A DNA stretch of 64,000 nucleotides. Origin: Mycolicibacterium sp. MU0053 (GTDB lineage Bacteria > Actinomycetota > Actinomycetes > Mycobacteriales > Mycobacteriaceae). Location: assembly GCF_963378095.1 (NCBI RefSeq), contig NZ_OY726397.1, forward strand, positions 3,720,001-3,784,000, given 5' to 3'. Both the position numbers and the translations under genes were made by a program. The notes below the pieces were generated by a model. The model did not search any database and was not told the DNA's origin. It saw only the letters and a list, made by a program, of their open reading frames with translations. Every line of letters starts with the position of its first letter. Positions within the stretch are counted from its first letter, which is position 1. This document shows positions 5,642-15,658 of this stretch, in pieces.

Positions 5642-7072
5642 ATGACGACTTCTTTGACGCCCACCCCGTTGCCGGCGTCGAGGCCGGCAACCCCGGTCGA
5701 CCGGCCCCACCTGGCGCGCGTCCTCGCCGACGCCGTGATCGAAGATCCCGACGCCGGCCTGTACCGGGCCAACCGCCGGATCTTCACCGACGAGGAGATC
5801 TTCGAACTGGAGATGGCGCACATCTTCGAGGGCAACTGGGTCTATCTGGCGCACGAGAGCCAGCTGCCCAACCCCGGCGACTACTTCACCACCACCATGG
5901 GCCGCCAGCCCGTGGTCATCACCCGGGACAAGGACGGCGAACTGCACCTGCTGATCAACGCCTGCGCGCACCGCGGCGCGATGATCTGCCGGCGCAAGAC
6001 CGACAACCGCACCACCTTGACCTGTCCCTTCCACGGGTGGACCTTCCGCAACGACGGCACCCTGCTGAAGGTCAAGGACCCCGAGGGCGCCGGCTACCCC
6101 GACTCGTTCAACAACGGCGGCTCGCACAACATGACCAAGGTGGCCCGGTTCGAGTCCTACCGTGGCTTCCTGTTCGGCAGCCTCAACGCCGATGTGCTGC
6201 CGCTGACCGAGCACCTCGGCGACGCCACCACCGTCATCGACATGTTGGTGGACCAGTCCCCGGAGGGCCTGGAGGTGCTGCGCGGCTCGTCCACCTACAC
6301 CTTCGACGGCAACTGGAAGGTGCAGGCCGAAAACGGCGCCGACGGCTACCACGTGACGGCCACCCACTGGAACTACGCCGCCACCACCAGCCGCCGCAGC
6401 ACCGGTGAATCCATCAACGAGACCAAGGCCCTCGACGCGGGCGGCTGGGGCAAAACCGGCGGCGGCTACTGGTCGTTCCCGCACGGACACCTGTGCCTGT
6501 GGACCTGGGCGGCCAACCCCGAGGACCGGCCGCTGTGGGACCAGCTCGACGACCTCAAGGCCCGGTTCGGGGAGGCCAAGGGCGACTTCATGGTGAAGGG
6601 TTCGCGCAACCTGTGCCTGTACCCGAATCTGTATGTCATGGACCAGTTCTCGACGCAGATCCGGCACTTCCGGCCCATCGCCCCGGACAAGACCGAGGTC
6701 ACCATCTACTGCATCGCCCCCAAGGGCGAAAGCACCGAGGCTCGGGCGCTGCGCATCCGCCAGTACGAGGACTTCTTCAATGCCTCCGGCATGGCCACCC
6801 CGGACGACCTCGAGGAGTTTCGGTCCTGCCAGCTGACCTTCCGGGCGCAGGCCGCCCCGTGGAACGACATGAGTCGCGGTGCGCAGCACTGGCTTTCGGG
6901 CCCCGACGACCTGGCCGAGTCGTTGGGCATGGCGGGCGTGATCTCGGCCGGCGTGCGCAACGAGGACGAGGGACTGTTCCCCGTGCAACACGGCTACTGG
7001 CGTCAGGTCATGCAAGACGCCCTGCACCACGAGGAAACCCAGGCCGCGGCCACCACGGGAACGGAGCACTGA
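5642..7072 (+). CDS. benA: Benzoate 1,2-dioxygenase, large (alpha) subunit
   Basis: This 476-residue Rieske oxygenase alpha subunit dihydroxylates benzoate to its cis-diol carboxylate. The Rieske [2Fe-2S] cluster is bound by C108, H110, C128 and H131 (CAH ... CPFH). The mononuclear iron facial triad is represented by H237 and H242, with D234 as the bridging Asp, in the DGYHVTATH block; the distal Asp ligand lies in the C-terminal third. Length and the conserved ADGYHV and RNLCLYPNLYVMDQ regions fit the benzoate/toluate group. The gene is followed after 3 bp by benB. Toluate or a related benzoate could be an alternative substrate. Confidence 0.95.
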   Translation: MTTSLTPTPLPASRPATPVDRPHLARVLADAVIEDPDAGLYRANRRIFTDEEIFELEMAHIFEGNWVYLAHESQLPNPGDYFTTTMGRQPVVITRDKDGELHLLINACAHRGAMICRRKTDNRTTLTCPFHGWTFRNDGTLLKVKDPEGAGYPDSFNNGGSHNMTKVARFESYRGFLFGSLNADVLPLTEHLGDATTVIDMLVDQSPEGLEVLRGSSTYTFDGNWKVQAENGADGYHVTATHWNYAATTSRRSTGESINETKALDAGGWGKTGGGYWSFPHGHLCLWTWAANPEDRPLWDQLDDLKARFGEAKGDFMVKGSRNLCLYPNLYVMDQFSTQIRHFRPIAPDKTEVTIYCIAPKGESTEARALRIRQYEDFFNASGMATPDDLEEFRSCQLTFRAQAAPWNDMSRGAQHWLSGPDDLAESLGMAGVISAGVRNEDEGLFPVQHGYWRQVMQDALHHEETQAAATTGTEH

Positions 7073-7075
7073 GCC

Positions 7076-7603
7076 ATGAGCACCACCGAACAGAGCGCGG
7101 CCGCCGGCACCAAGCTGATCACCCAGAACGCCATCGAGCAGTTCCTCTACCGCGAGGCGCGGTACCTCGATGACCGCGAGTTCGAGAAGTGGCTGGATTG
7201 CTACGCCGACGACGTCGTCTACTGGATGCCGTCGTGGGCCGACGACGACCGCCTGGTGGAGGATCCGCAGCGCGACATCTCACTGATCTACTACTCGAAC
7301 AAGGGCGGTCTGGAGGACCGGGTGTTCCGGATCCGCACCGAGCGCTCCTCGGCGACCTCGCTGCCGGAACCGCGCACCAGCCACAACATCTCCAACGTCG
7401 AGGTCATCGAGCGCCGCGGCGATCTGGTCGATGTCCGATTCAACTGGCACACCATGTATTTCCGTTACAAGACCGTCGACCCCTACTACGGGACCTCGTT
7501 CTACACCATCGACTTCTCCGCTGAGCAGCCGCTGATCCGCCGCAAGACGGTCGTGCTGAAGAACGACTACATCCACCACGTGGTCGACATCTACCACATT
7601 TAG
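7076..7603 (+). CDS. benB: Benzoate 1,2-dioxygenase, small (beta) subunit
   Basis: This 175-residue protein has the NTF2-like fold of aromatic-ring-hydroxylating dioxygenase beta subunits, which assemble with BenA into an alpha3beta3 oxygenase. Recognisable are the EQFLYREARYLDDREFEKWL helix region near residues 20-40, YADDVVYWMP, the ERSSATSLPEPRTSH segment and the C-terminal RRKTVVLKNDYI. It sits 3 bp after benA and 11 bp before the reductase gene, so the three are surely co-transcribed. The beta subunit is structural; it carries no cofactor. Confidence 0.95.
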   Translation: MSTTEQSAAAGTKLITQNAIEQFLYREARYLDDREFEKWLDCYADDVVYWMPSWADDDRLVEDPQRDISLIYYSNKGGLEDRVFRIRTERSSATSLPEPRTSHNISNVEVIERRGDLVDVRFNWHTMYFRYKTVDPYYGTSFYTIDFSAEQPLIRRKTVVLKNDYIHHVVDIYHI

Positions 7604-7614
7604 GGGCTGGCTTC

Positions 7615-10305
7615 ATGACCGCTGTGCAGGCACCGCCGGTGTCGCAGAATCACTCCGTCGCACTGACATTCGAGGACGGCGTGACCCGGTTCATCACCTG
7701 CCGGGAGGACCAGACCGTCGCCGACGCGTCCTATCGGCAGCGGATCAACATCCCGCTGGACTGCCGCGACGGCGCCTGCGGGACCTGCAAGGCGCTGTGC
7801 GAATCGGGCCGCTACGACGGCGGCAGCTACATCGAGGATGCGCTGTCCGAGGACGAGGCGGCCGCCGGCTATGTACTGCCGTGCAGCATGAAGCCGCAGT
7901 CGGACCTGGTGCTGCAGATCGCCACCACCTCCGACATCGCCAAGACCCAGGCGGCGACCTACTCCGGCAGCATCGTGGAGTTGACCCGGCTCTCGGCCAG
8001 CACGGTCCGGTTTAGCGTGGAGATCCCGAATCGCTCCGAACTGGCGTTCCTGCCCGGCCAGTACGTCAACGTCGAGGTCCCCGGCAGCGGTGAGACCCGG
8101 TCCTATTCGTTTGCCAACGCACCGGATGAGCCGCGGTTGACGTTCCTGGTGAAGCTCACTCCCGGCGGACTGATGTCGACCTATCTGGCCGAGCGGGCCG
8201 CGGTCGGCGACGCCATCACGTTCACCGGTCCGCACGGCTCGTTCTTCCTGCGCGAGGCCGATCGGCCGGTGCTGATGCTGGCCGGCGGCACCGGGCTGGC
8301 ACCGATTCTGGCCATGCTGCGCAAGATGCGCGGTGACGACAGCCGCCGCAAGGTGCACCTGATCTACGGCGTCTCCTCCGACGAGGACGTGGTCGAGGTC
8401 GATCAGCTCGACGAGATCGCCTCGCAGCTCACCGGTTTCAGCTGGGACTACTGCGTGTCGGATCCGGGCACGAAGGCCCCGAACCGGGGCCGGGTGCCCG
8501 CGCTGATCCAACCGGGCCACCTCTACAGCGGCGACGTCGCGGTCTACCTGTGTGGCCCGCCGCCCATGGTGGAGGCCGTCCGCACGCACCTCGCCGACAC
8601 CGGCGTCGAACCCACCGGGTTCTACTACGAGAAGTTCGCCCTCGCGCACACCGCTGCGGCCGAGCCCGCGGCGGCACCGCCGGCCGTGCAGGCCGCCGAG
8701 CCCGCGACCGTCACCGAAGACCTGCGACCCGCGGCCGCCGACGGGGTGGTGCGCGCCATCGCCGGTCAGGTGATGCTGACCCCCGCCGCGCTGGATCCGG
8801 TGCCGTCCGGCGCGCCGGCCGCCGAACCCGGCGACGCGATCCGCCGCCTCGCCGGCCAGCTGCTGGCACCCGGATCGGGCGGCCCCACGGCCGCGCTCGA
8901 CGAGGACGACGGCGCCCTGCTGCCGACGGCCGCGCGCACGCTGGCCGGCCAAGCGGTGTTCCCCGTCCCGGCGGTCGCCGCGCCGGTGGCCGCGCCCGCA
9001 GTGGCCGAGGACGGCTACCAGATCGGCGAGGAGCACCCCGAGGTCCACGAATCCGACGCCCTGTTCGAGGCGCGCCAGGCCCTTGAACTCGGGGCGCTGG
9101 AGTTGACCCTGGGACGGCTTTCGACCCAGCAACTGACCGGCTACCGGCTGCTGGCCGAGTCGACCATGCCCTATGTGGTCGAGGACCGCTTCGTCGATGC
9201 CGCGCAGTACACCGAGACCAACGCGGCGTTCCACGACTATCTGTTCACCCTGACCGGCAACGACCACCTGCTGCAGGCCTATCAGGCGCTCGGCGTCAAG
9301 GGCCGGATGAGCGAGGTGCTGCGGCACGCCACCTGGTGCCACCCGTTGTGCGCCCAAGACCATCTGGACATCGTCGCGGCCTTCGAGCGCGGCGACCGGG
9401 ACGCCGCCCGCGAGCTGATCATCGCCCATGCGGGGCGGTCCAAGCAGACCATGCGCCGGGCGATGGCCGACATCGAAGAGAACCGCGCTGCAAAGCAACC
9501 GCGGTTCGTCACGCCCGGCCGGTTCACCGGCAAGGTGGTGGTGGTCACCGGCGCCGCCCAAGGCATCGGGGAACAGACCGCGCGCCGGATCGGCGCCGAG
9601 GGCGGCACCCTGGTGCTGGCCGATCGCAGCGAACTGGTCAAGGAGCTGGCGAGCGAGCTGGATGCCCCGGCCGGGGGCGAGCGGTCCCGCGCGCTGGCGG
9701 TCACCGCCGACCTCGAACAGTTTGCCGGCGCCGATTCGGTGGTGCAGCAGGCTCTTTCGGAATTCGGCCGGATCGACGTGCTGATCAACAACGTGGGCGG
9801 CGCCATCAACTTCAAACCGTTCACCGAATTCAGCGACGCCGAGATCCGCGCCGAACTCGACCGTTCGCTGCTGACGACGCTCTACGCGTGCCGGGCCGCG
9901 CTGCCGTCGATGGTGCGCCAAGGCCATGGCGTGATCGTCAACGTCTCGTCGGCGGCGACCCGCGGCATCCACCGGATTCCGTACTCGGCAGCCAAGGGCG
10001 GCATCAACGCGATCACCGCCTCGCTGGCCCTCGAGTACGCCGAGGCCGGGATCCGCGTCGTGGCGACCGCGCCCGGTGGCACCGAGGCGCCGCCGCGCCG
10101 GATCTCGCGCGGCACCCCGGCGCCCCGCAACGACACCGAGCAGGCCTGGTTCCAGGCCCACATCGACCAAACGTTGGACTCGTCGCTGCTCAAGCGCTAC
10201 GGGACGCTGGACGAACAGGCCGCGGCCATCTGCTTCCTGGCCTCGGACGAGGCGTCCTACATCACCGGCTCGGTGCTGCCGGTCGCCGGTGGCGACCTCG
10301 GGTAG
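7615..10305 (+). CDS. BenC reductase - FCD sensor-like domain - BenD dehydrogenase triple fusion
   Basis: This 896-residue protein joins two benzoate-pathway enzymes. Residues 1-342 are BenC: plant-type [2Fe-2S] with C50, C55, C58 and C90, then FAD (RSYSFAN) and NAD (LAGGTGLAP) lobes ending at FYYEKF, where free-standing BenC ends. Residues 343-480 are an Ala/Pro-rich linker with three R-x-[IL]-AGQ motifs (AGQ at 383, 413, 444). Residues about 480-630 match the FCD ligand domain of GntR/FadR regulators (FEARQALELGAL, AAFHDYLFTLTGN, AFERGDRDAA); metal-site histidines H540, H583 and H605 are kept, with N536 where Asp is usual. No winged helix is present. Residues 636-896 are BenD-like SDR: TGAAQGIG 645-652, S778, Y790, K794. 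The frame is continuous; Met611 or Met615 could in principle start a shorter BenD. Confidence 0.92.
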   Translation: MTAVQAPPVSQNHSVALTFEDGVTRFITCREDQTVADASYRQRINIPLDCRDGACGTCKALCESGRYDGGSYIEDALSEDEAAAGYVLPCSMKPQSDLVLQIATTSDIAKTQAATYSGSIVELTRLSASTVRFSVEIPNRSELAFLPGQYVNVEVPGSGETRSYSFANAPDEPRLTFLVKLTPGGLMSTYLAERAAVGDAITFTGPHGSFFLREADRPVLMLAGGTGLAPILAMLRKMRGDDSRRKVHLIYGVSSDEDVVEVDQLDEIASQLTGFSWDYCVSDPGTKAPNRGRVPALIQPGHLYSGDVAVYLCGPPPMVEAVRTHLADTGVEPTGFYYEKFALAHTAAAEPAAAPPAVQAAEPATVTEDLRPAAADGVVRAIAGQVMLTPAALDPVPSGAPAAEPGDAIRRLAGQLLAPGSGGPTAALDEDDGALLPTAARTLAGQAVFPVPAVAAPVAAPAVAEDGYQIGEEHPEVHESDALFEARQALELGALELTLGRLSTQQLTGYRLLAESTMPYVVEDRFVDAAQYTETNAAFHDYLFTLTGNDHLLQAYQALGVKGRMSEVLRHATWCHPLCAQDHLDIVAAFERGDRDAARELIIAHAGRSKQTMRRAMADIEENRAAKQPRFVTPGRFTGKVVVVTGAAQGIGEQTARRIGAEGGTLVLADRSELVKELASELDAPAGGERSRALAVTADLEQFAGADSVVQQALSEFGRIDVLINNVGGAINFKPFTEFSDAEIRAELDRSLLTTLYACRAALPSMVRQGHGVIVNVSSAATRGIHRIPYSAAKGGINAITASLALEYAEAGIRVVATAPGGTEAPPRRISRGTPAPRNDTEQAWFQAHIDQTLDSSLLKRYGTLDEQAAAICFLASDEASYITGSVLPVAGGDLG

Positions 10306-10313
10306 CGCCTAGC

Positions 10314-12965
10314 ATGTGGGGCGTGCCCGACCCCATCCGCTGCGTTGGCCGGGATCGTGAGCTGTCCGAGCTCGCTGACCTCGTCACCGCCGCCCAGCAC
10401 GGTGCGCGCATGGTCGCCGTCACCGGCTGCGCCGGCATCGGCAAGACCACACTGCTGCGGCGGCTGGCCACCCTGTACAGCGCGCGCTGGGCCGCCGGGA
10501 TGCCGTGGGAAGCCGATCTGCCCGGCGGGGTCTTGGCGCAGTTGCTGCAAACCGATGTGCCCGTCGACCCGGTCGAGGCGGCCGCGCAGCTGCTCGACCA
10601 CCTGCGCGCCGGCGACATCCGGGTGCTGCTGATCGACGATGCGGAGCATGCCGATCCCCAATCGCTGCAAGCGATGTCGACCCTGGTGCGCCACCAACGC
10701 GAACAGCCGGTGCTCATCGTGTTGGCGACCACCGCGCCGGAGCGGCTACCGGCCGACGTGGGCCCCGAGGTGATCCGGTTGAGCGGCCTGCCGTCGGCGG
10801 CGGTCGCCGAACTGCTGCGGCACCGCGGCGCCAGCGTGCACCCGGCGATGGCCGAGGCCCTGAGTCGGCACACCGGCGGGAACCCGCGCGACGTGCTGGC
10901 GCTGATCGACGAGCTGCCGGCCGCGGTGTGGTCCCGTCCCGAGGCGGCGCTGCCGGCGCCCGGTTACGTCGTCGATCGGGTGCGGGAGACGCTGGCGCAC
11001 TGCGGGGCCGACGGCCGGAAACTCGTGACCGCGCTGGCCATTCTCGGCGCCGAGGCGACGCTGGCCGACGCGGCCGAGTTGGCCGAGCTCACCGATCCGC
11101 TGCCGGCCATCGATGCCGCCGCCGGCGCGGGTCTGCTGTCGCTGGAGTCCCGCTTCGAGCCGAGGCTGGTCGATGACCTCACCGCGGCCGCGGTCGTGCA
11201 ACTGATCGGCGTGCAGGCGGCCGCCGACGCCCATCGGCGCGCCGCCGAGATCGTGCCGGATCCGATCGCGAGCCTGCGGCACCGGGTCGCGGCCACCCCG
11301 ATGCCCGATGCCACCCTGGCCGACGAGGTCACCGCGCTGGCCCACCGGCGCAGTGCCGTCGGGGCGTGGGCTCAGGCCGCCACCCTGTTCCGGGACGCGG
11401 CCCGGCTGACCCCGGCGCCGTTGGAGCGCGAGACCCGGATGACCCTGGCGGTGGACGCCCTGGTCGCCGCCGGTGACTGCGGGGCGGCGGCCGCACTGGT
11501 GCCCGCGATCGAGAGCATGCGCGAAACCCCGTTGCGCAACGCCGTTCTGGGTTACCTCGCGATACTGCGCGGGCGCGCGGCCGAGGCCGGGGTTCGCCTG
11601 GACCGGGCCTGGGAGATCGTCAACGCCGAACGGGAACCGGAGACCGCGGCCCTGATCGCGCAGCGTTATGTGCTGCATGCGTTGATGCGCGGCCGCGGCA
11701 GCGAACTGGTCGGGTGGGCCGACAAGGCGCTGCAACTGGCCGAACTCGACTCCCCCGCCGGCATCGAGGCGGCCGCGGTGCGCGGCCTCGGCATGCTGGC
11801 CGCCGGCCATCCCAAGAGCGCCGCCATCGCCTATGACGATCTGGCCGGCCGGGTGCGCCACGGCGCCCAGTCGCAACGCTTCACGATGGGCCGCGGCTGG
11901 GTGCAACTGCTCAGCGACGATATCGACGGCGCCCGCGGCAACCTCGAAAGCGCAGTCTCTACTGCGGCTTTGGGCGGCTCCCGACGAATCACGCTGTGGG
12001 CGTTGGGCTGGTTGGCGCGGGTACACTTCGTCACCGGCGAGTGGGACACGGCGCTGGCCGTCATCGAGTCCGGCCGCGCGCTGGCGGCTTCGAGCGGGAT
12101 CGTCATCGTCACACCGATGCTGGAATGGACCGCGACACAGATCCACGCCCTGCGCGGGGACTGGACGGCCGCCGCGGCCACCGCCCGGGCCGCCGATGTG
12201 GTCACCCAGGACTACGAGATGATGCGCATCCCGGCACTGCTGGCGCGGGCGCAGATCGCCGAGGCCGAGGCCGACTACGCGCGGGTGCGCCGCACCCTGG
12301 AACCGTTGCTGCGGTTGGCGCCGGGCACGGCCCTCAACGAGCCCGGTTACTGGCCCTGGCCCGACGTGCTCGCCAACGCGTTGGTGATCGACGGGCGGCT
12401 GCAGGAGGCCGAGGCCTTCCTGGGACCCCATGAGCAGCGGGCCCGGGCGCGCAATCACCGGTCGGCAACGGCGCGGCTCGGTTATGCGCGGGGCCGGCTG
12501 CTCGGTGCGCGCGGCGACCTGCCCGCGGCCCGGTCCGCGTTCGAGGAATCGCTGGCCCTGCTCGACGGCCTGCCGCTGCGCTACGACCTGGCGCGGGTGA
12601 ACTTCGCCTACGGCCAGACGCTGCGACGGGCCGGCAAACGCCGCGACGCCGACGCGGTGATCGGCACCGCCCGCGAGCTGTACCTGTCGCTGGGTGCCCA
12701 TACTTACGTCGCGCGCTGCGAGCGAGAGCTCAAGGCCGGCGGACTCAACCAGCTGCGCGGTGCCCGGCACAGCGTGGACCTGACCCCGCAGGAGGAGGCG
12801 GTGACCACATTGGTGGCGCAGGGAATGTCCAATCGGGAGGTGGCTGCCGAGCTGTTCGTGTCGCCCAAGACCGTGCAGTACCACCTCACCCGGGTCTACG
12901 CGAAGCTCGGCATCCGGTCGCGCACCGAGTTGGCGGCCCGCGGCCCCTGGGGTGTCGATGCGTAG
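10314..12965 (+). CDS. Large LuxR-family (LAL, MalT-like) ATPase regulator
   Basis: This 883-residue protein has the LAL architecture. Residues 1-250 form a P-loop NTPase with Walker A G38-T45 (GCAGIGKT) and a Walker B LLIDDAEHAD. Residues about 300-800 are an Ala/Leu-rich helical, TPR-like repeat region. The C-terminal 60 residues are a LuxR helix-turn-helix (LTPQEEAVTTL ... VSPKTVQYHL). The gene starts 8 bp after the benC-benD stop, so it is probably in the ben operon; the GTG three codons in is an alternative start. It may sense a pathway metabolite or general carbon status, but the inducer is unknown. It overlaps vanY. Confidence 0.92.
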   Translation: MWGVPDPIRCVGRDRELSELADLVTAAQHGARMVAVTGCAGIGKTTLLRRLATLYSARWAAGMPWEADLPGGVLAQLLQTDVPVDPVEAAAQLLDHLRAGDIRVLLIDDAEHADPQSLQAMSTLVRHQREQPVLIVLATTAPERLPADVGPEVIRLSGLPSAAVAELLRHRGASVHPAMAEALSRHTGGNPRDVLALIDELPAAVWSRPEAALPAPGYVVDRVRETLAHCGADGRKLVTALAILGAEATLADAAELAELTDPLPAIDAAAGAGLLSLESRFEPRLVDDLTAAAVVQLIGVQAAADAHRRAAEIVPDPIASLRHRVAATPMPDATLADEVTALAHRRSAVGAWAQAATLFRDAARLTPAPLERETRMTLAVDALVAAGDCGAAAALVPAIESMRETPLRNAVLGYLAILRGRAAEAGVRLDRAWEIVNAEREPETAALIAQRYVLHALMRGRGSELVGWADKALQLAELDSPAGIEAAAVRGLGMLAAGHPKSAAIAYDDLAGRVRHGAQSQRFTMGRGWVQLLSDDIDGARGNLESAVSTAALGGSRRITLWALGWLARVHFVTGEWDTALAVIESGRALAASSGIVIVTPMLEWTATQIHALRGDWTAAAATARAADVVTQDYEMMRIPALLARAQIAEAEADYARVRRTLEPLLRLAPGTALNEPGYWPWPDVLANALVIDGRLQEAEAFLGPHEQRARARNHRSATARLGYARGRLLGARGDLPAARSAFEESLALLDGLPLRYDLARVNFAYGQTLRRAGKRRDADAVIGTARELYLSLGAHTYVARCERELKAGGLNQLRGARHSVDLTPQEEAVTTLVAQGMSNREVAAELFVSPKTVQYHLTRVYAKLGIRSRTELAARGPWGVDA

Positions 12966-13479
12966 GGCCGGCGCGGGCCTGACCCTGGCCGCGGCCGCCG
13001 CGCTGGCCGGCGCGCTGCTGGCACCGCTGCCGGCGGTCCCGCCGCGGGTCGCCCTCGCCGACAACGCCACGCCACTGGTGAGCCCCTTCGACGTGTGGGA
13101 TCCGGCGGTCGGCCGGCTCGAGCCCGCGCTGCTGCGCGCCGTGCAGGACGCCGCCAACGCCGCTGCCGCACAGGGCATCACAATGACGGTCAACTCCGGG
13201 TGGCGCTCGCCGCAGTTCCAGCAGCGCCTGCTCGACGATGCGGTATCGACCTACGGCAGCTACGCCGCGGCCCGGCAATTCGTGCAGACCCCGGAGCAGT
13301 CCAAACACGTGGTCGGTGCGGCCGTCGACATCGGCGGCCCCGACGCCGCGCAGTGGCTCGGCACCCACGGCGCGCGGTTCGGCCTGTGCCAGATCTATGC
13401 CAACGAAACCTGGCACTTCGAACTGGCGGCCGACGCCGACGGGGTCTGTCCGCCGCTGCTACCCGACGCGGCCGGCTAG
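12952..13479 (+). CDS. VanY-type D-alanyl-D-alanine carboxypeptidase (peptidase M15B), secreted
   Basis: This protein of 175 residues from the GTG (173 from the ATG at 12958) has an N-terminal signal-like hydrophobic stretch (residues 8-25) with an Ala-rich cleavage region near 36. The M15 zinc site is complete: S117-x-H119-x6-D126 ([10 protein letters not shown]) and E152-x2-H155 (ETWH), with a C146/C166 pair that may form a disulfide. Such enzymes trim the terminal D-Ala of peptidoglycan stem peptides in the periplasm. The start lies inside the 3' end of the LuxR gene, so it is co-transcribed with it. It converges on pcaJ with a 21-bp overlap. No link with benzoate metabolism is evident. 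Confidence 0.88.
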
Positions 13480-14115
13480 CTTTCGCGCGTCGGTGACCGG
13501 AGCGGCGGTCTTGGCGACCATGTCGTCGTAGTCCACCCCCGGGGCCAGTTCGACCACCTCGAAACCTTCGCCGGTGACGTCGAAGACCCCGAGGTCGGTG
13601 ATGACGCGGCTGACCACGGCCTTCCCGGTCAGCGGCAGATCACAGGCCGTAACGAGCTTGGCCGCACCAGTTTTCGCGACGTGGTCCATCAAGACGATGA
13701 CTCGCCCGGCGCCGTTGACCAGGTCCATCGCACCACCCATGCCCTTGACCATGGATCCGGGCACCATCCAGTTGGCCAGGTCGCCGTTGCCGGCCACCTG
13801 CATGCCGCCGAGCACCGCCACGTCCACGTGCGCGCCGCGGATCATCGCGAAACTGGTCGCCGAATCGAAGAACGACGCGCCGGGCAGCACCGACACCGTC
13901 TGCTTGCCGGCGTTGACCAGGTCGGGGTCCACCTCGTCCTCGTAGGGGAACGGGCCGACGCCGAGGATGCCGTTCTCGGCGTGCAGTTGCACGTCGGAGC
14001 CCTCGGGCAGGTAATCGGGGATCAGCGTGGGCAGCCCGATGCCGAGGTTGACGTAGTCGCCGTCGCGAAGTTCCCGTGCTGCGCGGGCGGCCATCTCTTT
14101 ACGGGTCCAACTCAT
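13459..14115 (-). CDS. pcaJ: 3-oxoadipate CoA-transferase, subunit B
   Basis: This 218-residue beta subunit of a family I CoA-transferase moves CoA from succinyl-CoA to 3-oxoadipate. The catalytic Glu that forms the glutamyl-CoA thioester is E47 in HAENGILG, and the [11 protein letters not shown] and [18 protein letters not shown] segments are typical. Its ATG overlaps the pcaI stop (ATGA), as expected for equimolar subunits. The close relatives SCOT and acetoacetate CoA-transferase cannot be separated by motif; the pcaF-pcaD-pcaI-pcaJ context decides. Confidence 0.93.
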
Positions 14116-14891
14116 TGGTGCGCCTCCTGCCGTACTCGGGTGGTCAGCTGCTCGATTTCCTTGCGCGCAGCCTGCTCTGGGGTCAGCTCGTGGACGCGCT
14201 GCACGAAGATGCCGGGCAGATGCACCTCGTCGGGGTGCAGTTCGCCGACCTCCACCACGCGCTCGGCCTCGACGATGGTCACCCGGCCGGCCATCGCGGC
14301 CGGCGGATTGAAATTGCGTGCCGCGGCATGGAATACACAGTTGCCGGCCTTGTCGGCGACGGCGGCACGCACCAGCGCGTAGTCGGTGACGATCGCGGTC
14401 TCCAGCAGCATCTCGCGGCCACCGAAGCTGCGGACCTCCTTCGGCGGGGACGACAGCGCGATGCTGCCGTCGGTGTGGTAGCGCCAGGGCAATCCGCCAT
14501 CGGCGACCAGCGTGCCGACGCCGGTGGGGGTGAAGAAGGCGCCGACGCCGCTCCCCCCGGCCCGCAGCCGCTCGGCCAGGGTGCCCTGCGGGGTCAACTC
14601 GACGGTCAACTCGCCGGCCAGGTACTGCCGGGCGAATTCCTTGTTCTCACCCACGTAGGAGGCGATCACCCGGGTGATCCGGCGCGCCTCGAGCAGCAGG
14701 CCGAGGCCGCCGCCGTCGACGCCGCAGTTGTTGCTCACGATCGTCAGGTCCTCGGCGCCCTGCTCCAGCAGCGCCTCGATGAGGAACCACGGGATGCCGG
14801 CCAGGCCGAATCCGCCGACGGCCAGGCTGGCGCCGCTGGGGATGTCGGCGACGGCCGCGGCGGCCGAGTCGACCACTTTGTTCAGCGTCAT
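14112..14891 (-). CDS. pcaI: 3-oxoadipate CoA-transferase, subunit A
   Basis: This is the 259-residue alpha subunit, partner of PcaJ. The N-terminal [17 protein letters not shown] contains the CoA-transferase signature, followed by [15 protein letters not shown] and the [15 protein letters not shown] block. The start at MTLNKVVDS overlaps the pcaD stop (ATGA). With stop-start overlaps on both sides, pcaD, pcaI and pcaJ form one translationally coupled chain. Confidence 0.93.
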
Positions 14892-15658
14892 GACTGCTCC
14901 AGGTGTTCGATGAGGGCGGGCGTGATGATGGCGGGTTGTTCGGCGTTGGCCAGATGCGCCGAGCGCGGCACCACCAGCACCTTCGCCCCCGCAATGGTGT
15001 CGGCGATATCGCGCAGCATTGCCGGCGGCGTGGCCGCATCGTCGGCCCCGGCGATCGCCAGGGTGGGCGCCAGAATCGACGGCAGGTCGTCGCGCAGATC
15101 GAGTCTCGCGATCACCTCGCAGCAGGCCGCGTAGCCCTCGGCCGGGGTGTTGGCCACCATGTGCTCGGCCTCGATGCGGACGTCGGGATGGACGGCCAGA
15201 TAGTCGGGGGTGAACCAGCGCGACACCACCGACGCGGCGACGGCACCGGCGCCGCCCGCGCGCACCGTCTTGGCCCGCTCGGTCCAGGCGCTGGCCGGCG
15301 GCAGCTGGGCACTGGTGCACAGCACCGCCATCCGGTCGACGCGCTCGGGATTGCGGGCGGCCAACCGCAGCGCGGTCATGCCGCCCAGCGACAGTCCCAC
15401 GACGTGGGCGCGCGCGATGTCGAGGCGATCCAGCAGGGCCACGACGTCGTCGACCAGTTCATCGATCGAGTAGGGCCCGTCGGGGACGGGCGAGCCGCCG
15501 TGCCCGCGGGTGTCATACCGCACCACCCGGAAGCGGCTCTCCAACTCGGGCAGCTGGGCGTCCCACATCCGGTGGGTCGAACCCAACGAGTTGGACAGCA
15601 CCACCGCCGGGGCCTCGGGCCGGCCGCTGACCACGGCATGGACTTCGCACGAACTCAT
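14888..15658 (-). CDS. pcaD: 3-oxoadipate enol-lactonase
   Basis: This 256-residue alpha/beta hydrolase hydrolyses 3-oxoadipate enol-lactone to 3-oxoadipate, joining the catechol and protocatechuate branches. The nucleophile S90 sits in GLSLGG, the acid Asp is probably in GADDAATPP near residue 210, and the catalytic His is in SAHLANAEQP near 236. The N-terminal VVLSNSLGSTHRMWD motif is diagnostic of PcaD. It lies 5 bp downstream of the thiolase gene. In this window it is the only enzyme able to follow CatC. Confidence 0.94.
   Translation of the reverse strand: MSSCEVHAVVSGRPEAPAVVLSNSLGSTHRMWDAQLPELESRFRVVRYDTRGHGGSPVPDGPYSIDELVDDVVALLDRLDIARAHVVGLSLGGMTALRLAARNPERVDRMAVLCTSAQLPPASAWTERAKTVRAGGAGAVAASVVSRWFTPDYLAVHPDVRIEAEHMVANTPAEGYAACCEVIARLDLRDDLPSILAPTLAIAGADDAATPPAMLRDIADTIAGAKVLVVPRSAHLANAEQPAIITPALIEHLEQS

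Follow-up and report, generated by a model that had tools for sequence, protein, structure and literature searches.

A BenC-FCD-BenD fusion protein with a regulator-type pocket and a repeated linker motif in Mycolicibacterium sp. MU0053

Organization of the fused gene

The DNA analysed here, called the window, is a stretch of 64,000 nucleotides from the 5.45 Mb, single-contig genome of Mycolicibacterium sp. MU0053 (contig NZ_OY726397.1, positions 3,720,001 to 3,784,000). Its forward strand carries an open reading frame (7615..10305, 896 amino acids) encoding a benzoate dioxygenase reductase (BenC), an FCD domain and a benzoate diol dehydrogenase (BenD) in one protein. The frame runs from the ATG at 7615 to the stop codon at 10305 without interruption, in the order BenC, linker, FCD and BenD, and a search of the genome found it complete only once.

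The BenC part (7651..8640, residues 13-342; NCBIfam, Pfam and Foldseek) comprises [2Fe-2S] ferredoxin, flavin adenine dinucleotide (FAD) and nicotinamide adenine dinucleotide (NAD) domains and is followed on the same strand by an Ala/Pro-rich linker of 134 residues (8641..9042, residues 343-476), predicted to be disordered from its predicted local distance difference test (pLDDT) scores and conservation, by an all-helical FCD domain (9043..9495, residues 477-627; Pfam, AlphaFold2 and Foldseek) and by BenD (9520..10302, residues 636-896; above the NCBIfam cut-off), a member of the short-chain dehydrogenase/reductase (SDR) family. Pfam analysis of the 896 residues placed Fer2 at 20-95, FAD_binding_6 at 120-210, NAD_binding_1 at 221-323, FCD (PF07729) at 483-606 and adh_short at 640-826. 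Both ends exceeded the cut-offs of their NCBIfam equivalogs, BenC (NF040810) with 478.7 bits against 430 and BenD (NF040811) with 409.1 bits against 380. As far as the reading frame, Pfam and the equivalogs can tell, one uninterrupted BenC-FCD-BenD frame is present, as a sequence-only reading of this DNA had claimed. The cysteines that it listed for the [2Fe-2S] cluster (C50, C55, C58 and C90) are complete and invariant in an alignment of 70 sequences, and Pfam recovered the FAD and NAD parts of BenC. Its SDR residues also stand: in a 21-sequence BenD/SDR alignment Y790, K794 and S779 are invariant and S778 is conserved in at least 90%, the catalytic serine being either S778 or S779.

The best Foldseek match of the reductase was BenC of PDB entry 1krh (benzoate 1,2-dioxygenase reductase; 48% identity), which has the same reductase domains but ends after 337 residues, whereas the MU0053 protein continues into the linker, FCD and BenD. 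BenD retains the SDR catalytic residues of benzoate diol dehydrogenase (NF040811); the NF040811 model describes a 256-residue protein, while here BenD forms the C-terminal third of the chain. The reductase GcoB (5ogx) of the GcoAB P450 system is of the same type as BenC but serves another oxygenase and has 333 residues without FCD.

Two genes lie directly upstream in the same direction and were presumptively named benA (5642..7072, +; dioxygenase large subunit) and benB (7076..7603, +; dioxygenase small subunit), the latter ending 11 bases 5' of the fusion gene.

The FCD domain

The FCD family was recognized with 52.5 bits, above the gathering cut-off of 24.3. An AlphaFold2 model of the domain alone (residues 466-632) reached a pLDDT of 93.6 and a predicted template modelling score (pTM) of 0.87. 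All 50 best Foldseek matches were GntR/FCD-type regulators (DhdR, PmiR, NanR, Atu1419, TM0439 and similar proteins), with maximum template modelling scores of 0.69 (query) and 0.78 (target); the best E value was 1.8e-4, and eight of 282 matches had E ≤0.001. The top matches were DhdR entries, among which 9vkn holds the inducer L-2-hydroxyglutarate (L2HG). A profile search of PDB sequences placed GntR regulators first (best E 7.4e-5), five of the 20 matches with E up to 10 being NusB. The predicted structure and its comparison with known FCD structures agree with the FCD fold proposed earlier.

The metal-binding regulators Atu1419, TM0439, HypR, LldR and NanR, as well as DhdR, have the same fold as that predicted for the MU0053 domain, but FCD regulators carry a DNA-binding winged helix, in place of which the MU0053 domain has a reductase. 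No winged-helix family was among the eight Pfam families reported at E up to 1 over the 896 residues, in agreement with the sequence-only reading, and the N-terminal winged helix that marks a GntR/FadR regulator is thus lacking.

Four residues of the domain are putative metal ligands, namely N536 and H540 (N-x3-H; 9220..9234, +), H583 (9361..9363, +) and H605 (9427..9429, +), the last 22 residues past H583. They correspond to the Asp/Asn plus three His, at known spacing, of the metal-binding FCD subgroup. The spacing of H583 and H605 had been pointed out before and, in the alignments, holds as in metal-binding FCD regulators; N536, the fourth ligand, had not been mentioned. PMC7797058 gives N137, H141, H192 and H214 as the Zn ligands of Atu1419, with spacings of 4 and 22 as in N536-H540 and H583-H605. 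Similarly, R92, E96, F141, H142, H186 and H208 of HypR correspond to R487, E491, F539, H540, H583 and H605; the corresponding Arg, Phe and His of CitO matter for citrate, and in TM0439 a Glu partners the metal histidines (PMC6608401). The ligand spacing N/D-x3-H and H-x21-H is therefore shared with both Atu1419 and HypR, and with HypR also the pocket Arg, Glu and Phe.

All four putative ligands are invariant in the 70-sequence alignment. Among 120 triple fusions, N536, H540 and H583 occur in every protein and H605 in 119. An alignment of 43 FCD domains (26 from triple fusions, 14 from two-part BenC-FCD proteins and three fused to P450) revealed that R487, E491, N536, H540, H583 and H605 are identical in 43/43 and F539 in 42/43, the pocket residues staying while identity to the MU0053 domain drops to 35%. 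The pattern N-x2-F-H plus H-x21-H was found in 119/120 triple fusions, protein P0045 lacking H605 through a short deletion, and in 113/120 two-part proteins (three of the 120 being fragments below 500 residues); the other seven retain all three histidines. Judged from these alignments, the pocket is under constraint wherever FCD sits on a reductase. That triple, two-part and BenC-FCD-P450 fusions all retain it, apart from a few exceptions, argues for ligand binding, and the conservation fits the sensor that had been suggested. The further suggestion of a metal-storing scaffold is unsupported, since the residues come together in a single pocket, to which the Arg position for carboxylate binding also belongs.

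The domain might instead serve for oligomerisation or spacing only, dimerising the reductase (and BenD) around a structural metal without control by a ligand, which we consider somewhat unlikely. The Zn of Atu1419 fixes helices belonging to the tetramer interface (PMC7797058), and FCD is retained in fusions as different as those with BenD and P450. A structural metal alone, however, does not call for R487 and F539, the ligand contacts by correspondence with CitO and HypR, which are conserved like the metal ligands.

The idea that the domain was captured recently from a GntR regulator nearby was rejected: among 7149 frames in 104 loci and the window, a profile search detected one other FCD protein, and of the 38 proteins (about 85-271 residues) listed for the FCD piece alone none was labelled with a GntR winged helix. 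The one other FCD protein is encoded by a 296-residue frame (L083:1571, +; E 1.4e-7) that lies within 1 kb of a ben cluster's LuxR-type gene.

Distribution of the fusion

A homology search with the fusion protein gave 1290 matches, the best 120 of which were the protein itself and 119 others, all full-length fusions of 848-931 residues with 70-79% identity; the genera Mycolicibacterium, Gordonia, Nocardia and Aldersonia occur among the protein names. The relative P0107 of Mycolicibacterium smegmatis has 920 residues. The domain order, for which a search in other actinobacteria had been proposed, is thus widespread, with at least 119 full-length fusions. These proteins and the uninterrupted frame in a single-contig genome make a sequencing artefact unlikely, and together with 36 triple loci on the BenC tree they rule out a fusion unique to MU0053. 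The design is old and common to many actinobacteria, and so probably functional rather than accidental.

Among 298 genomes of the order, 30 had BenC above the cut-off, 27 of them in frames of at least 868 residues; the remaining frames were one of 661 and two of 408 and 483 residues. In the genus, the limit applied gave BenC in 35 of 248 genomes (frames of 868 residues or more in 32 and short frames in three), and in the class 13 of 394 genomes were above the cut-off. Frame length alone is not proof of all domains; in the loci examined, the domain order was confirmed by tblastn. In 80 named loci, taken from at least 578 relatives, BenC alone was found in Proteobacteria, Streptomyces, Saccharopolyspora, Halopolyspora and one Arthrobacter, and BenC-FCD with a separate BenD in Rhodococcus, Micrococcaceae, Kocuria, Corynebacterium and Dietzia. 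A set of two-part proteins, the 120 best of 5342 matches, carried a Pfam label for FCD but none for SDR. Actinobacterial two-part proteins (Rhodococcus, Corynebacterium, Micrococcaceae) share BenC, FCD and nearly the same pocket with the triple fusion but have no BenD in the chain, a shorter linker and no linker motif.

A phylogenetic tree with a midpoint root was constructed from 81 BenC domains, those of the 80 loci and the window, comprising 36 triple fusions and 21 BenC-FCD proteins without a fused BenD (three of these P450 fusions). All 36 triple fusions formed one clade, with two BenC-only rows inside it, at a support of 98/98, and two changes, in the simplest case a single gain and a single loss, are enough to explain the clade. 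The two-part proteins of Corynebacterium and Dietzia joined it at 82/96, which is below star, the Corynebacterium branch being long (0.93), while some two-part loci (Rhodococcus, and G289 of MU0053's own family) lay outside. The sequence tree thus gives the triple fusion a single origin within actinobacteria, next to BenC-FCD proteins that have no BenD attached. Since the triple clade adjoins two-part proteins, FCD joined BenC before BenD did, and this order follows from a root anywhere outside the triple clade. FCD accordingly belongs to BenC first and is not simply a bridge between BenC and BenD. The earlier idea of a module linking reductase to dehydrogenase is likewise weakened by at least 120 FCD-bearing proteins without SDR and by the 21 BenC-FCD loci without a fused BenD.

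BenC-FCD was also found fused to a cytochrome P450 in Paraburkholderia unamae, P. franconis and P. atlantica (L133:5920-8790, L135:4857-7727 and L138:5881-8793), with a full-length match in 3/3 genomes. The first of these frames contains Fer2, FAD and NAD domains, FCD (59.0 bits) and p450 (80.0 bits), and on the BenC tree the P450 fusions sit among Proteobacteria on a long branch. The fusions with BenD and P450 indicate that two or more different enzymes have been acquired at the C-terminus of the reductase-FCD module. The eight L133 neighbours were two major facilitator superfamily transporters, a galactarate-dehydratase-like protein, Ldh_2, SDR and FAD_binding_2 proteins and two AraC-type regulators. 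The genome of the third locus (G917) has a second frame of 870 residues (G917:C200) that matches the reductase and P450 parts.

The linker and its repeated motif

The linker has pLDDT values mostly below 50 in the full-length model and evolves fast, the mean frequency of the majority residue being 0.485 over residues 346-470 versus 0.84-0.87 in the domains. Its disorder would allow cleavage, and ATG codons occur at residues 613 and 617; BenC and BenD might then be separate proteins after all, through proteolysis of the linker or an internal start before BenD. This is quite improbable: inspection by eye of the sequence ahead of BenD revealed no clear ribosome-binding site, 36 of the 38 rows in the triple clade retain the fused frame, and 32 of the 35 BenC-bearing genomes of the genus have frames of at least 868 residues at this place.

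Within the linker a motif, R-x-[IVL]-A-G-Q-x-[ML]-[LF]-P, passed over in the sequence-only reading, is present in three copies about 30 residues apart. Copy 1 is RAIAGQVMLT (8752..8781, +, residues 380-389; R in 97%, G in 95% and Q in 83% of 120 triple fusions; E 0.012), copy 2 RRLAGQLLAP (8842..8871, +, residues 410-419; R 88%, G 94%, Q 95%; E 0.0017) and copy 3 RTLAGQAVFP (8935..8964, +, residues 441-450; R 96%, G 95%, Q 89%, F 93%; E 0.00044). Counted over whole proteins, the motif occurs in 116/120 triple fusions, the MU0053 protein included, and in 0/120 two-part proteins; 103 of the triple fusions have two or more copies. The linker itself could be located in 118/120 triple and 112/120 two-part proteins, with a median length, by the same measure, of 142 versus 54 residues. 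The 118 located linkers hold 269 copies against a mean of 0.5 and at most three after shuffling, which leaves relatedness in place, and successive copies are mostly 29-33 residues apart. In the genus, 23 of 26 linkers (26 of 27 loci being used) have at least one copy. Copies are degenerate in four loci of one branch (L055, L154, L157 and L166).

With the motif profile, only the three copies in the fusion frame had E <0.05 in the MU0053 genome (4e-4 to 0.012); the next value was 0.086, and the next two matches, SRYVTGQQLFVDAG and ARHITGQTLHVSSG, were by eye C-termini of short-chain dehydrogenases. No match below E 0.159 turned up in three genomes from species with the two-part protein. A role as a general cargo tag is unsupported, as the six matches below 1e-3 in 61 family genomes were all in frames of 916-1036 residues; weaker matches included unrelated-looking frames, the best with E 0.0018 (175 residues, G654) and 0.0057 (57 residues, G136). 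Short-chain dehydrogenase-like C-termini of the form R-x-[IV]-T-G-Q-x-[LV] recur as weak matches in L063, L064, L096, L101 and L106, by mimicry or coincidence. The linker of a Dietzia BenC-FCD protein (L155) holds another short repeat, ARPVG..PR, in three copies 30 and 32 residues apart; 21 of 2000 shuffles hold some 5-mer three times. The Dietzia linker does not match the motif profile and was rejected as a diverged copy.

In three genomes (G281, G207 and G798) FCD and most of the linker have been lost between BenC and BenD, and the BenC stop codon overlaps a GTG taken as the BenD start. One motif has remained as the C-terminus of BenC in 3/3 of them: GARCIAGQLVF (G281), GARRIAGQLVF (G798) and RARCIAGQLVF (G207). 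Judged by its flanks it is the third copy; R and I-A-G-Q-L-V-F are unchanged and the neighbouring residues vary. Two of the three genomes are in the BenC tree, both nested in the triple clade, and all three probably share one event. No BenC-type FCD was found elsewhere in these genomes, five weak matches of 22.7-40.6 bits lying in frames of 226-315 residues (the best in the frame of 315). From these three sequences, the motif is a tag that can outlive both FCD and the covalent link, and its retention at the BenC C-terminus suggests a docking tag but, with one event probably shared by all three, does not prove a function.

That a chance fusion left FCD and the motifs behind as neutral remnants, as the loss of FCD in one lineage and the degenerate motifs in the four loci of one branch might imply, is hardly credible: the pocket is conserved over deep divergence, and in the 120 triple fusions the mean conservation of FCD (0.873) equals that of BenD (0.871).

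A tally of positions conserved in the triple clade and different outside it, which leaves out the three P450 fusions, gave 11/121 for BenB, 14/273 for BenA, 4/138 for BenC and 2/122 for BenD, a weak hint from the alignments towards the dioxygenase BenAB as docking partner. The motif could instead tether BenD close to the reductase, the BenC tail of the split lineage recruiting the separate BenD. It is present in the clade where BenD is fused and in 0/120 two-part proteins, the two best non-self matches in the genome are the dehydrogenase C-termini mentioned above, and it resembles a segment of the BenD fold family. A covalently linked BenD, however, is hardly in need of three tags, BenD has the fewest clade-specific positions, and short-chain dehydrogenases are so numerous in the source genome that a chance resemblance is likely. 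Tethering of BenD is on balance unlikely.

Possible function

As best explanation we tentatively propose, at somewhat less than even likelihood, a BenC with its own ligand-binding FCD domain and BenD fused behind it, combining acid sensing with a docking linker. The FCD domain would bind one divalent metal of the Zn or Ni class and, through the metal, one of the pathway's carboxylic acids, most likely 1,6-dihydroxycyclohexa-2,4-diene-1-carboxylate, an alpha-hydroxy acid that is the product of BenABC and the substrate of BenD. Hydroxy acids are sensed by some FCD regulators: CitO responds to citrate (PMC6608401), DhdR to 2-hydroxyglutarate and others to lactate, glycolate or galactonate. The proposed ligand is suggested by this sensing and by the hydroxy-acid nature of the ben intermediate. 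Binding might feed back on electron delivery by BenC or keep the intermediate ready for BenD. The long and flexible linker, with its one to three tags, would dock the chain to a partner, BenAB being favoured and BenD second, and docking would put the use and regeneration of NADH in one complex. The local recycling of NADH considered in the sequence-only reading may also take place.

Several observations weigh against this explanation. In the two-part proteins N536 is replaced by Thr or Ser (4/120) and F539 by Leu (two, P0163 and P0164) and one has a short insertion; P0045 does without H605 among the triple fusions; and Leu214 of CitO corresponds to position 606, which is Ala in 33/43 FCD domains. 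BenC has no FCD in Streptomyces, Saccharopolyspora, Halopolyspora, one Arthrobacter and the Proteobacteria with a BenD neighbour, and the split lineage keeps benA, benB, benC, benD and the LuxR-type gene together despite the loss of FCD, which makes FCD dispensable there. The two split tails compared by codon differ by four nonsynonymous and one synonymous change in 43 codons, which is no proof of selection. The clade-specific residues are confounded by shared descent, and the full-length model, with a pTM of 0.44, does not fix domain placement. Finally, no dioxygenase-like family was among the eight L133 neighbours scanned, so that one ligand shared with the P450 fusions is not obvious.

The enzymes and the domain are known; their combination, the retained regulator pocket and the repeated linker tag were not found described in the literature searched. 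No published account of the fusion or its FCD was found in open-access titles and abstracts, a scope that leaves aside older subscription articles about the ben genes of Rhodococcus and Corynebacterium. To our knowledge the FCD domain is otherwise confined to gene regulators. A further-reaching and rather doubtful possibility is that a transcription-factor effector domain has moved into metabolism as a metal-dependent acid sensor on a reductase and forms, with a multivalent docking linker, a benzoate metabolon. If so, product feedback would act directly on the electron supply, and dioxygenase, reductase and dehydrogenase would be gathered by up to three docking peptides; the reductase-FCD module, reused with P450 in Paraburkholderia, would be a general plug-in for oxygenases. 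An FCD that works as a sensor within an enzyme would provide enzyme-level feedback and a ready-made module to control oxygenases. A linker tag that docks BenAB would be a natural multivalent peptide assembling an aromatic-degradation complex, with the split lineage as a built-in natural experiment.

Gene neighbourhood and other reductase fusions

The fusion gene is followed by a LuxR-type ATP-binding regulator (10314..12965, +; start ATG chosen by eye), presumably BenR-like. In related loci with a full match a benA-type frame (70-85% identical) precedes BenB and BenC, and benB and the LuxR-type gene are conserved neighbours in related ben loci. On the other side of the cluster lie a LysR regulator and a muconate-cycloisomerase-like gene, so named by homology. 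Frames resembling, by eye, CoA-transferase subunits and an enol-lactone hydrolase were seen at 13459-15658 (-) of the window; with these nearby, the ben genes seem part of a larger beta-ketoadipate cluster.

Several genomes of the genus encode a BenC-like reductase with about 36% identity (L040:6021-7001, L042:5080-6054 and L043-L047); its frames are about 850-940 residues long and continue into an FAD-oxidoreductase-like part. Frames of 854-937 residues that matched BenC with about 290 bits were rejected as examples of the present fusion, being by eye reductase-FAD oxidoreductase proteins instead.

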